64,000 bases of DNA. Origin: Fidelibacterota bacterium (GTDB lineage: Bacteria; Fidelibacterota; Marinisomatia; SCGC-AAA003-L08; D37C17). This document shows, one piece after another, positions 56,100-61,984 of this stretch. The DNA lies in the NCBI GenBank assembly GCA_030748955.1, contig JASMKZ010000001.1, positions 1 to 64,000 of the forward strand, in the 5' to 3' direction. How positions within the stretch are numbered: position 1 is the first letter of the stretch; each line of letters starts with the position of its first letter. The notes beneath the pieces were generated by a model that was given only the letters and a program-made list of their open reading frames with translations, was not told the DNA's origin and made no database searches. The translations under genes and the position numbers were made by a program.

Positions 56100-57185
56100 A
56101 TGTCGCCCAAGTTTAGTATTCATCCTAATATTGCACAGGCTGAAACCCTTTCTTCTGAATTTTATGAAAATCCTGAAATATTTATAGATTGTAAAGAAAA
56201 GATTTTTGCAGCTTCCTGGCAATTTATCACCCACTTATCGACCTTTAACGATCATACTATTTTCCCCTTTTCATTTTTGAAAGGATATATAGATGAGCCC
56301 CTGCTCCTCATTAAAAATGAGGATGTTATTAATTGTTATTCAAATGTATGCACCCATCGCGCCCATTTAGTGGCAAGTCGGCCATGTAGTATTAATACAT
56401 TGCGTTGTCTCTATCATGGTCGCAATTATAATCTGGATGGCACCTTTAAATCTATGCCGGGATTTGAGGGTCTACAGGATTTCCCAACTAAAAAGGATAA
56501 TCTGAAGTCTATACCCATTTTTACTTGGAATAATTTTGTTTTTGCATCACTGAATGCCAGTATTGATATGACCTCGGTTCTAAATGATATTGAACAGCGA
56601 CTTCCTAGCTTCCCCTTTGATGATCTTACTCATGATGAAGATAGTTCAAAGAGCTGGGAAATTAATGCCCACTGGGCACTTTATTGTGAAAACTATTTAG
56701 AAGGATTTCATGTACCCTTTGTACACAAAGGATTGGCAAAAGATATTGATGTGAACACTTACGAAACCAAATTATTAGAAAATGGGGTTTTGCAAATTGC
56801 AGAGTGTGAAGAGCCGCTTGAAATATTGAAAGATCCTCGATCGCCCTCACGAAATATTTATGGATTATACTATTGGATATTTCCCAATATTATGTTGAAT
56901 TTTTATTCTTGGGGTTTATCGGCGAACATTGTAGAGCCTATTTCAACACAGAAAACCAGAGTCCGGTTTTTGTCATTTGTAATAAACGAAATGGCACAGC
57001 CCCAAGAAGGTGATGCAACATTAGAAAGGGTTGAACTGGAAGATCAGTCAGTAGTTAAGAGCGTACAAAAAGGAATTAAATCAAGGTATTATAAAAGAGG
57101 AAGATATTCACCCCTACATGAAAAAGGGGTGCATCATTTTCACGGACTGCTGGCAGACGCCCTTAATTCTTCAGTATGTTCATAA
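56100..57185 (+). CDS. Rieske [2Fe-2S] ring-hydroxylating oxygenase alpha-subunit-like
   Basis: 'CTHRAHLVASRPCSINTLRCLYHGRNYNLDG' Rieske motif; 'NYLEGFHVPFVH' mononuclear iron ligand region. Confidence 0.88.
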   Translation: MSPKFSIHPNIAQAETLSSEFYENPEIFIDCKEKIFAASWQFITHLSTFNDHTIFPFSFLKGYIDEPLLLIKNEDVINCYSNVCTHRAHLVASRPCSINTLRCLYHGRNYNLDGTFKSMPGFEGLQDFPTKKDNLKSIPIFTWNNFVFASLNASIDMTSVLNDIEQRLPSFPFDDLTHDEDSSKSWEINAHWALYCENYLEGFHVPFVHKGLAKDIDVNTYETKLLENGVLQIAECEEPLEILKDPRSPSRNIYGLYYWIFPNIMLNFYSWGLSANIVEPISTQKTRVRFLSFVINEMAQPQEGDATLERVELEDQSVVKSVQKGIKSRYYKRGRYSPLHEKGVHHFHGLLADALNSSVCS

Positions 57186-58567
57186 TATTCTACATTTTCA
57201 AATTGTTCTAAAAAGGTAGCACAAGAATCCTTATTCCCAACAACAACCATCATAAAATTGTTGGGGTCAAACATCTTAACTGCCACATCATTTATCTCTT
57301 CCAGCGTTACACTTTGTATATAGTTCCATTTATTAGATATTTCATCTAAACTATAACCGTTCAAATTATAATTATCCTGAATAAATGTTGACAGCTGTCT
57401 AGGATTGTGTAGCCTATTATTATAGTAATTTATTTTTGCTTTTTTAGCATATTCGAGCTCAGATTCGGTAATTGAATTATTAGATAATATCTTAAATTCA
57501 CTCTTTAATTCATTATACAATCGAGAAAGCCCTTCATACTGAATGATACCTCTTATTTGAATAGATGGAATTGTTGGATGTTTTCTTAGGCTTGAATGGA
57601 GTTCACCATAGTATTCAAATTTTGAATGAATATTTTTTAGCCTACTACTAAATCCATGAGCACCAAAGACATCGTGAGCGAGAATGCCTGCATATAAGCG
57701 CTTATCACTTGTGCTTGGAGCCCATTTTACAATATCAATTTGAGCATCTTTATTGTTTTCAACATGTATAAAACGAAGCTTAATTCCAGTTTTATCATTT
57801 AAGTTAATAGAATAGTTTCTTTTTTCTGGAATTTTATTAGAAGGCTGCCAATCTCCAAAATATTTATCCACCATTTTTTTTACATATATTGCATTAACAT
57901 CTCCACTAACCATAATTGTAATATTTTCAGGTGTAATAAAATTATGGTGCCATTTTAATAATTTTTTCTTACTGGCAATAGGTTTTGGGTGAATATGATG
58001 ATATATATTAGCATATTGATGTACATTATGTTTATAGAGTAACTGTTTAGATCTAATAAGTGAAGTTTTGGGAGAGGTTGCAAAAACAATAGATGATAAA
58101 AATTTCTTTAACCATATTGGATATGTAGGATGAATCAAAATTTCAGAAATAAGTTCAAGTCCTTCATTTAAATCTTCTTTTAAAAAATAATCCTGAATAG
58201 TGCCATGAACAAAATTCAGGTGGAAACGCTTAAAGCGACCATCATCACTACCGAGAGAAAACAATTTATCTCGTATATGATTATTTGATGGATACTTAGA
58301 AGTTCCTTGATTCATTGCATCAAAAGCATCTGTTGATATTCCTATCTGGTTCTCATAATCATCCAATTTACTTGCATTAATATAAACATTGACGTAGGCA
58401 ATAGGATTATCATAGTTGGGAGCAATAAGTACCCGCAAACCATTTTCAAGCCGATATTCTTCTATATAAGGGAGATTATTTTCAGCATAGAGCGAAGTAA
58501 TTAAGTAACATAGAACAATGGCATGGATAAAATATGAAATTCCCAGTTTATTTTTTAATGTAATCAT
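57140..58567 (-). CDS. M16 peptidase-like protein without HxxEH (predicted inactive)
   Basis: 'LENGLRVLIAPNYDNPIAYVNVYINA' and M16_C-like 'ENITIMVSGDVNAIYVKKMVDKYFGDW'; motif position reads GISTDAFDAMNQGT. Confidence 0.85.
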   Translation of the reverse strand: MITLKNKLGISYFIHAIVLCYLITSLYAENNLPYIEEYRLENGLRVLIAPNYDNPIAYVNVYINASKLDDYENQIGISTDAFDAMNQGTSKYPSNNHIRDKLFSLGSDDGRFKRFHLNFVHGTIQDYFLKEDLNEGLELISEILIHPTYPIWLKKFLSSIVFATSPKTSLIRSKQLLYKHNVHQYANIYHHIHPKPIASKKKLLKWHHNFITPENITIMVSGDVNAIYVKKMVDKYFGDWQPSNKIPEKRNYSINLNDKTGIKLRFIHVENNKDAQIDIVKWAPSTSDKRLYAGILAHDVFGAHGFSSRLKNIHSKFEYYGELHSSLRKHPTIPSIQIRGIIQYEGLSRLYNELKSEFKILSNNSITESELEYAKKAKINYYNNRLHNPRQLSTFIQDNYNLNGYSLDEISNKWNYIQSVTLEEINDVAVKMFDPNNFMMVVVGNKDSCATFLEQFENVEYYEHTEELRASASSP

Positions 58568-58568
58568 T

Positions 58569-59987
58569 CTATTTTTCAGGATCCCAAAGCCTTAATACAA
58601 ATTGATTTGCAACAAATGAAACTATTGGTGTGTACCAGTGTTTTTTATCATCATTCAGAGATATAACAATGGTTTTTCTATTGTCCTTATTAAAATATTT
58701 TTTTACGACACGCTTAATATCGTCATTTGTAAGCTCATTTAATATTTCCAACTCTCTGTTATAATATTTGTAATCTCCCCATATAAGTTCTGCGTAAATA
58801 AGCCGTCTCGCAATCACCCTATAGGCATAATATTCTTCATATTCCTCTAGTAGTTCCAATCTTTTATATTGTTCAAGTAGCATGTCCCCTATTCCATTAT
58901 CACCAATATATTTAAAGGTAGACAATACCTGTTTATTTATTTTATTTGCTGATCCTGTTCTAAACACATTGAAACAATGAAGTATGAATCCGGAATATCC
59001 AAGCATGGGCATATATTGAACTTCAGCACCTATAAATAACCTTCTATTTTTACTAAATCTTTTAAAAAGATCATCCCTTTTTTCAATCGATAATTCAATA
59101 ATATTAGTAATATGTTTTAGAATAACTGCATCATCTTCCCGCGTAGATGGCATATAGAAAAATGAACTAACTGCCCCACCAGGAAATGTAAACCAATTAC
59201 TACTTGCAGAATGTCTAGATATAGAAGCAGTCAGCTCAATTCCCTCGATGGATAAAGATGGATCTGCGGGTATATTATCAGATGGGGGAATGTGTCCAAA
59301 ATAGCTATATATCATTTTTGTTGTTTCTATTGGCTCAACATCTCCCACAATCACAAGAACAGCATTATTGGGTGAATAATATGATTCATACCATGATATA
59401 CAAGATTTAGTTGTTAAGCTATTGATCTGGCCAGGATCAGGCCATATTGATTGATAGGGGTGACCTTTTGGCATAAATTCATCAAAAGCATTGTTAAATG
59501 CTAAACCTGTTTCATTTTTTTTCCATTCACTCCAATCAACATAATATCTTTCCTTCATTTTTTCTAGAACACCATCATTTATTATAGTGTTTGTCATTCG
59601 ATCTGATTCTACATCTAATATAAAATCAAGTCCATCAATGTGAATCTCTGTATAAAAAAGAGAAATATCATACGTGGTACGGTCACCATAATTCGCACCC
59701 AATTCATCACGCATCTTAGAGAGTTTTTCATTAGGATATAATTGTGTTCCCTCTATAACAATAGCCTTAGTGACAATATCATTTATACCTCTTGTTCTAT
59801 TAGGCTCATCATGACTGCCAACATTATATGCAATATTCACAGCCACTTTTGGCGCACCATGACGTTCCATTAAAATTACTTTTAATCCGTTGGGAAGAAA
59901 AAAATCATGAATATCTCCATCCAATGCATTTGATGAGGAAATTAGTAAAACGGAGAAAAGTAAGGAGGGGAGAAATTTTAGGGTCAT
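58569..59987 (-). CDS. M16 peptidase-like protein without HxxEH (predicted inactive)
   Basis: 'LPNGLKVILMERHGAPKVAVNIAYNVGS', 'NAVLVIVGDVEPIETTKMIYSYFG'; motif position reads GINDIVTKAIVIEGT; start at MTLKFLPSLLFSVLL preferred over track start 60068. Confidence 0.85.
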   Translation of the reverse strand: MTLKFLPSLLFSVLLISSSNALDGDIHDFFLPNGLKVILMERHGAPKVAVNIAYNVGSHDEPNRTRGINDIVTKAIVIEGTQLYPNEKLSKMRDELGANYGDRTTYDISLFYTEIHIDGLDFILDVESDRMTNTIINDGVLEKMKERYYVDWSEWKKNETGLAFNNAFDEFMPKGHPYQSIWPDPGQINSLTTKSCISWYESYYSPNNAVLVIVGDVEPIETTKMIYSYFGHIPPSDNIPADPSLSIEGIELTASISRHSASSNWFTFPGGAVSSFFYMPSTREDDAVILKHITNIIELSIEKRDDLFKRFSKNRRLFIGAEVQYMPMLGYSGFILHCFNVFRTGSANKINKQVLSTFKYIGDNGIGDMLLEQYKRLELLEEYEEYYAYRVIARRLIYAELIWGDYKYYNRELEILNELTNDDIKRVVKKYFNKDNRKTIVISLNDDKKHWYTPIVSFVANQFVLRLWDPEK

Positions 59988-59994
59988 TAAGGTG

Positions 59995-61173
59995 TTATTC
60001 CACAGTTCCGGTATCATAATTATAAATACCAGTAATGGTTTCTCCTTTGATTTCAAGCACATCATCAATTTCTATAAGACTAACTTTACTCCAACTCATT
60101 TCATCTGAAGCATTAATGTTTAATTTAAATTTTGCTTCATAAGCTAGGCCAGATGGACGATAAAATATTCTAACTATCATAACTTCCTGGGACGGATTTC
60201 TAGCATACAGTCCAGTAGAACCAGGCTTTATAACCCTGACATTTTTCTTAACGACTTCTTGGTTTACTTTTAATTGTTCTAGTTCTAAAATTAGTTTTTT
60301 CAGATCTAATTCATAATCTGTTTTTTGCTTAGTTTTTTCGGACTTAGATAGGAAAATCATTTCCCCTTCATGTGTAGTGAGGCGTTTAACTTGAGGGGTC
60401 TGAGAATTTTCAGTATCAAGACTCACTTTTTCCTGTAAATAAAATCCCAGCTCAGAGCCCGTAATAAAATCATCTCCGTTTGAATTAGCTTTTTTATCCT
60501 TTAAACCTGAAATAAGATTTTTTGTAAATGCGGAATGCTCCCACTCATCCTTTTCTAAAACCTTCTCATCTTTTTGACCAGCAGTAATAATTTGCCGGGC
60601 ATTTTCTCGTGTAATTTTATCAAGATAGTCAGGGGTATTTTTACTTAATCCTCGAGTATTAACAGCGGCGAGCCCACTATAACAAGCATCCACTAAAAAG
60701 AGCATATGCTTTGCCTTTGAAAATTTTGAAATACTTCTAAGATCTTCCATGGGGATGGCGGAAAAATATAAATTTTCTACATCTGCATCTGAGGGCATCA
60801 AAAAACCAGCATCTCCTTCTTCAAGTCCCAATTCTTCAGTCTCGCCGTGTCCCGCAAAATAAAAAACTACGCGATCATTCTCACCCGCAGATTTTAGCAG
60901 CTTACTCATTTCTTTATTAATATTTGATTGTGTAGCCTCTTTATCAATTAATACTCGAACATCATTTCTAGAAAAATTAAAATTATTAATCAACATATTC
61001 TTGACTGCCAGAGCATCTTCGACTGCATAATGTAAATCTGGAACATTTTCATAGTCATTAATACCAATAATTAATGCCCATGAACGATCATAAATTCCTC
61101 CATCATTAATATTTTGCGTTAATGCAATAGCCAGAAAGCAAAAATAATATTTTAGCAAAACCCTCATAATCAT
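59995..61173 (-). CDS. secreted caspase/metacaspase-like protease (peptidase C14)
   Basis: signal peptide; 'RSWALIIGINDYENVPDLHYAVEDA', 'FYFAGHGE' (His), 'LVDACYSGLA' (Cys). Confidence 0.92.
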   Translation of the reverse strand: MIMRVLLKYYFCFLAIALTQNINDGGIYDRSWALIIGINDYENVPDLHYAVEDALAVKNMLINNFNFSRNDVRVLIDKEATQSNINKEMSKLLKSAGENDRVVFYFAGHGETEELGLEEGDAGFLMPSDADVENLYFSAIPMEDLRSISKFSKAKHMLFLVDACYSGLAAVNTRGLSKNTPDYLDKITRENARQIITAGQKDEKVLEKDEWEHSAFTKNLISGLKDKKANSNGDDFITGSELGFYLQEKVSLDTENSQTPQVKRLTTHEGEMIFLSKSEKTKQKTDYELDLKKLILELEQLKVNQEVVKKNVRVIKPGSTGLYARNPSQEVMIVRIFYRPSGLAYEAKFKLNINASDEMSWSKVSLIEIDDVLEIKGETITGIYNYDTGTVE

Positions 61174-61732: not shown

Positions 61733-61984
61733 ATGATAAAAATTTATACAACTAATTGGTGAGGGCCTTGTATAGCAGCTAAAAAAATGCTGGATGGCAT
61801 GGACATGTCATATGAAAATATAGATATTGAAAAACAAGGGTTAAGCCGAGAAGATCTGGCAAAAATTACTGGTGGCCATACGGTTCCACAAATTATCATT
61901 AATGGTAAAGCAATAGGTGGATTTAATGAACTCCTTCAATTAAACAATTCTGGTAAACTGAAAGAACTTTTAAAAGATGACTGA
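61733..61984 (+). CDS. selenocysteine-containing glutaredoxin-like protein, UGA = Sec10 in W-U-G-P-C
   Basis: hand translation from ATG 61733: MIKIYTTNW[U]GPCIAAKKMLDGMDMSYENIDIEKQGLSREDLAKITGGHTVPQIIINGKAIGGFNELLQLNNSGKLKELLKDD*; TGA at 61760..61762; 'HTVPQIIINGKAIGGFNEL' is the glutaredoxin TVP/GG signature. Confidence 0.88.
61787..61800 (+). promoter_or_regulatory. candidate bacterial SECIS hairpin for the glutaredoxin
   Basis: ATGC-TGGATG-GCAT, 4-bp stem with GG in the loop, starting 25 nt after the UGA; contains the ATG that the ORF track chose as start. Confidence 0.45.

Follow-up and report, generated by a model that had tools for sequence, protein, structure and literature searches.

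A predicted secreted caspase gene followed by two M16B genes without catalytic residues in one Neomarinimicrobiota species

Gene content of the locus

The window, by which we mean the whole 64,000-nt stretch of DNA that was analyzed, comes from the genome of an uncultured marine Neomarinimicrobiota bacterium (here G000) and carries three closely spaced genes on the minus strand, called the triplet below: a caspase gene, M16a, and M16b. These genes and their neighbors are arranged as follows.

56100-57185, plus strand, Rieske oxygenase gene, convergent to M16b
58567-57140, minus strand, M16b gene, 475 aa (ORF list, Pfam, and tree)
59987-58569, minus strand, M16a gene, 472 aa from ATG (ORF list, Pfam, and tree)
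61173-59995, minus strand, caspase gene, 392 aa (ORF list and Pfam)
61653-61198, minus strand, Bcp-type peroxiredoxin gene with an in-frame TGA (TPGU, predicted selenocysteine)
61733-61979, plus strand, glutaredoxin gene with an in-frame TGA (NWUGPC)

The ORFs reproduced the minus-strand triplet of the initial annotation, running from 61173 to 57140 with only a few nucleotides between genes: 7 nt separate the caspase gene from M16a, and 1 nt separates M16a from M16b. A TTG start of M16a at 60068, overlapping the caspase gene, is unlikely, and the ATG is preferred. Coding composition is normal, and inspection of the sequences showed that each product opens with a hydrophobic signal-like segment. 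The peroxiredoxin gene runs in the same direction, stops some 25 nt short of the caspase gene, and is possibly the first gene of the caspase-M16a-M16b transcript. A promoter and terminator scan of the locus returned no more sites than did shuffled sequences. At the other end, M16b and the convergent Rieske oxygenase gene share 46 nt (57140-57185) at their 3' ends.

The peroxiredoxin gene was missing from the gene list of the initial annotation, which started past this TGA-containing gene. Together with the glutaredoxin gene, it forms a divergent pair of predicted selenoprotein genes, and SelA is present in the genome. Every locus of the family that was read has the selenocysteine form of the peroxiredoxin; that of the glutaredoxin was seen in the source genus only, with Cys in the related genera read.

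With respect to the caspase, its sequence matches Pfam C14 (PF00656) with an E value of 5e-23 and metacaspases in the PDB. The p20 domain (approximately residues 30 to 265) holds the GHG and DACYSG motifs, the His/Cys dyad is intact, and the C-terminal extension has no Pfam match. The signal-like N terminus and both motifs bear out the original description of a signal-peptide caspase with complete catalytic motifs, and the product is predicted to be a secreted C14 caspase-like protease of the orthocaspase/metacaspase type. Prokaryotic caspase homologs (orthocaspases) share the C14 p20 domain and the His/Cys dyad with it. In a survey of these homologs, about half were found in predicted operons, 23 with other proteolysis domains, and M16 goes unmentioned in its main text (PMC3501461). 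A role in antiphage defense was rejected, as PADLOC returned a generic caspase model only and nothing for M16a or M16b.

Loss of the active site in M16a and M16b

Pfam places M16a in the M16 family by both its C-terminal (M16_C, 5e-12) and its N-terminal (3e-7) domain and M16b by M16_C (6e-18). Both ORFs are full length and have no internal stop in this AT-rich genome, the other frames holding 21 to 74 stops. Scanning the two whole sequences returned neither HxxEH nor HExxH, confirming the previously noted loss of HxxEH in both proteins; an alternative zinc site of the HExxH type, which would have spoken against that reading, was likewise found in neither.

Catalytic columns were compared with those of 34 aligned relatives, which had been drawn from 80 genome loci. 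Where the active subunit has H, E, H, N, A, and a distal E, invariant in 34/34, M16a has D70, K74, A75, G101, D102, and D151, the last of these changes (E to D151) removing the third zinc ligand as well. The H/E/H substitutions of the initial annotation were right in substance, but an alignment with more sequences shows one inserted residue within the motif helix of M16a, so that the I/K/A is better read as D70/K74/A75. Among columns conserved in ≥85% of the relatives, M16a has kept 0 of 7 catalytic ones versus 39 of 67 others (Fisher p = 0.004).

M16b belongs to a subunit type that never has the zinc site in the relatives examined. It has in addition lost the substrate-binding R/Y pair, which completes the M16 active site (PMC12731061): the R found in 29/29 relatives is H314, and the Y found in 29/29 is G321, the alignment near the Y being uncertain by 1 to 2 residues. 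An M16B peptidase carries HxxEH and the distal Glu in one subunit and the R/Y pair in its partner or C-terminal domain, and M16a and M16b have none of these. Judged by sequence, M16a is the former active subunit of an M16B heterodimer whose catalytic machinery has been lost, and M16b is the usual inactive subunit, here deprived of the R/Y pair as well. This agrees with the original impression that both subunits look inactive, the zinc and catalytic residues being replaced in M16a and absent from M16b.

Descent, predicted fold, and residual constraint

In phmmer searches of the PDB, M16a matched bacterial M16B enzymes (4nnz, 1e-25; active subunit of 3amj, 2e-22) and M16b matched the inactive subunit of 3amj (1e-8). 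A tree of 50 M16B proteins placed M16a as sister to the active subunits (support, 0.997) and M16b as sister to the inactive subunits (support, 0.94) of G050, G115, G127, and G128, where the genes of the pair are likewise in a-b order and no caspase adjoins them. As in an M16B pair, M16a and M16b are adjacent a/b genes from distinct subunit clades, and the tree and gene order indicate that they trace to an ordinary active/inactive M16B operon of other Neomarinimicrobiota. Their terminal branches, 1.55 and 1.92, are the longest in the tree.

The AF2 models of M16a and M16b have pLDDT values of 86.7 and 82.0, with Foldseek E values of 1.4e-29 and 2.8e-26 and TM scores (query) mostly of 0.65 to 0.77. 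The top matches are M16B and related M16 subunits, those of Sphingomonas A1 included, and both proteins are predicted to keep the M16 fold of two repeated alpha/beta domains. Furthermore, broadly conserved columns are kept more often than clade-only columns both in M16a (39/64 versus 33/116; p = 3e-5) and in M16b (14/27 versus 33/124; p = 0.02). This preferential retention, together with the normal composition, argues that the two genes are not junk, although it does not tell whether the constraint preceded or followed the loss of activity.

M16B pairs are described as consisting of one active and one inactive half, and our literature search, which was not exhaustive, found no published bacterial pair with both halves dead. 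The best sequence and fold matches are the bacterial heterodimers of Sphingomonas A1 (Sph2681/2682; PDB 3amj), Pseudomonas (PA0371/PA0372; PDB 4nnz), and Thermus (TTHA1264/1265). M16a and M16b resemble these in their M16 fold, in their two adjoining genes, and in the active-then-inactive order seen in the relatives examined, but M16a lacks both the zinc ligands and the catalytic Glu, M16b has no R/Y pair, and the two share one apparent operon with an adjacent caspase gene. Another M16B pair, core I/core II of the mitochondrial bc1 complex, has no R/Y pair and usually shows no proteolytic activity (PMC12731061). These proteins differ from M16a and M16b in being mitochondrial respiratory subunits that are not secreted and have no caspase, and no specific sequence affinity to them was found.

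Distribution of the triplet

The triplet occurs in one genome only, G000. No close M16a match was found outside G000 among the 60 nearest relatives, the best (30% identical) being an active enzyme, and no close relative of M16b was found in any other of the 245 phylum genomes (best match, 27%). An ortholog search of the genome contigs, for which M16a alone was the query, returned nothing. We gathered 80 M16a-related loci by patterns of which HxxEH was not a part; the upstream subunit retains HxxEH in 80/80 of these other M16B operons, and no caspase was found near any of them in 0.95 Mb of flanks. A viral or mobile origin was rejected, as no relatives were found in viral contigs.

At the syntenic locus of G005, the stops of the Rieske oxygenase and peroxiredoxin genes lie about 23 nt apart, and in G001, glyS and the peroxiredoxin gene abut; neither locus holds any of the three triplet genes. 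Since the flanking genes lie so close together, the triplet is most readily taken as an insertion between two convergent genes that lie next to each other in a congener. G002 keeps the peroxiredoxin-caspase arrangement, with a caspase of 66% identity, up to a contig end inside the caspase gene, and on its Rieske-side contig a different gene comes next. The M16 pair was not found in G002 to G004, the locus being contig-broken in G002 and unassembled in G003 and G004. The conserved caspase-M16 linkage expected in the initial annotation was therefore largely not found, as a syntenic counterpart was seen for the caspase alone, in a single other species, at a contig end.

Other M16 and caspase loci

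PF00656 caspases at an E value of 1e-12 are confined to 26/244 phylum genomes. M16 genes lie beside caspase genes in two further types of cluster, a partial echo of the linkage.

5410-13148 of L082 (G000, contig C322), active M16A gene, gene for a small protein ending in CxxCH (haem-like), and two large secreted caspase genes in a row
6575-9378 of L146, pair of the second M16 lineage with both halves lacking HxxEH (also in L147, L148, L149, and L151)

The first type is partly conserved in G004 and G005, where the M16A gene lies near one caspase gene. Its M16A protein in G000 is intact (HFLEH), so the statement that the caspase is the only active protease holds for the operon but not for the genome. 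We rejected an active M16 partner acting in trans: this M16A protein is the sole other M16 found in the genome and, as a single chain that supplies both of its own halves, needs no partner.

The second type belongs to another family of the same order (family f4). The first subunit of some of its pairs reads NxxAH or HxxTH, and the ortholog in G035 (L172) is active. In 3 of the 5 species with such a pair (G025, G034, and G039), a convergent caspase gene follows, outside the M16 operon, and in G028 and G040 there is no caspase nearby. Thirteen further caspase-bearing stretches hold no M16. The tree suggests that M16B pairs with two dead halves arose at least twice in the phylum. Such pairs are only loosely associated with caspases. 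Besides the window, 2 M16 loci lie near independent caspase loci versus 0.14 expected (P of about 0.009), a post hoc statistic with a roughly guessed expectation on which we do not rely.

Discussion

We tentatively favor the explanation that M16a and M16b form a pseudoenzyme clamshell made with the exported caspase. In this scenario, a single Neomarinimicrobiota species would have gained an accessory block of about 4 kb comprising the caspase gene, M16a, and M16b, inserted between convergent genes and behind the peroxiredoxin gene. The pair goes back to an ordinary secreted M16B heterodimer with one active and one inactive subunit, of which one half then lost the zinc site and the other lost the substrate R/Y pair, the predicted fold being kept. 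The two chains may still form an M16 clamshell, a noncatalytic binder or scaffold that is made with, and probably acts beside, the exported caspase and that might present or sequester peptides or restrain the caspase. This account builds on the observed gene layout, descent, catalytic-residue loss, predicted fold, and restriction to one lineage, and it adds a functional tie to the caspase that we infer.

We counted in its favor the tight same-strand layout, the subunit-wise grouping in the tree with the same gene order, the retention of other columns versus catalytic ones, the confident M16 fold models with normal coding composition, and the second, independent lineage with two dead halves, which has a caspase next door in three species. 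Counted against it were the occurrence of the triplet in a single genome, the longest branches of the tree, which decay would also give, and the family f4 pairs, whose neighboring caspase genes are convergent or missing.

The clamshell is preferred over slow decay, which is nevertheless a serious rival, although in our view a less likely one. Here, an M16B operon acquired beside the caspase gene would have lost its function and would be drifting with selection weak or absent, tied to the caspase by position alone. The branch lengths fit such a relic, as do the absence of the pair at the locus of G001 and G005, the failure to find it in G002 to G004, the loss of many otherwise invariant residues (R/Y pair included), and a GC3 of the genes about 1.5 to 1.9 standard deviations below that of the window's genes. 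Two M16 ORFs without a single internal stop in an AT-rich genome argue against it, as does the preferential retention of noncatalytic conserved columns, though part of this retention could predate the loss of activity.

It is unlikely that the pair has a nonproteolytic role of its own apart from the caspase, for example, as an envelope scaffold or in peptide binding. The caspase-less pairs of G028 and G040 would suit such a role, for which the structural, proteolytically inactive bc1 core I/II provide a precedent (PMC12731061), but the gaps of a few nucleotides inside a caspase operon and the caspase genes adjoining dead pairs in family f4 speak for a connection. That M16a or M16b is still a peptidase through an unrecognized metal site is highly improbable. 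A His-rich stretch of M16b (around residues 180 to 208) would speak for it, but this stretch is partly of low confidence in the AF2 model and lies outside the active-site helix, M16a has each of its three zinc ligands and its catalytic Glu replaced, and neither protein contains HxxEH or HExxH.

For the clamshell with the caspase, the proposal of the initial annotation that the M16 pair serves the caspase as a chamber or adaptor is a hypothesis to which the second dead lineage beside a caspase lends weak circumstantial support. A broader and quite speculative extension is that M16B clamshells of Neomarinimicrobiota repeatedly lost catalysis and were combined with exported caspases as periplasmic regulators, inhibitors, or substrate carriers. 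Two apparently independent cases of pairs with both halves dead, one in the source genus and one in family f4, can be compared with active sisters. If the M16 pair does control the caspase, it would constitute a pseudoprotease-caspase module and give a handle on the role of exported bacterial caspases.
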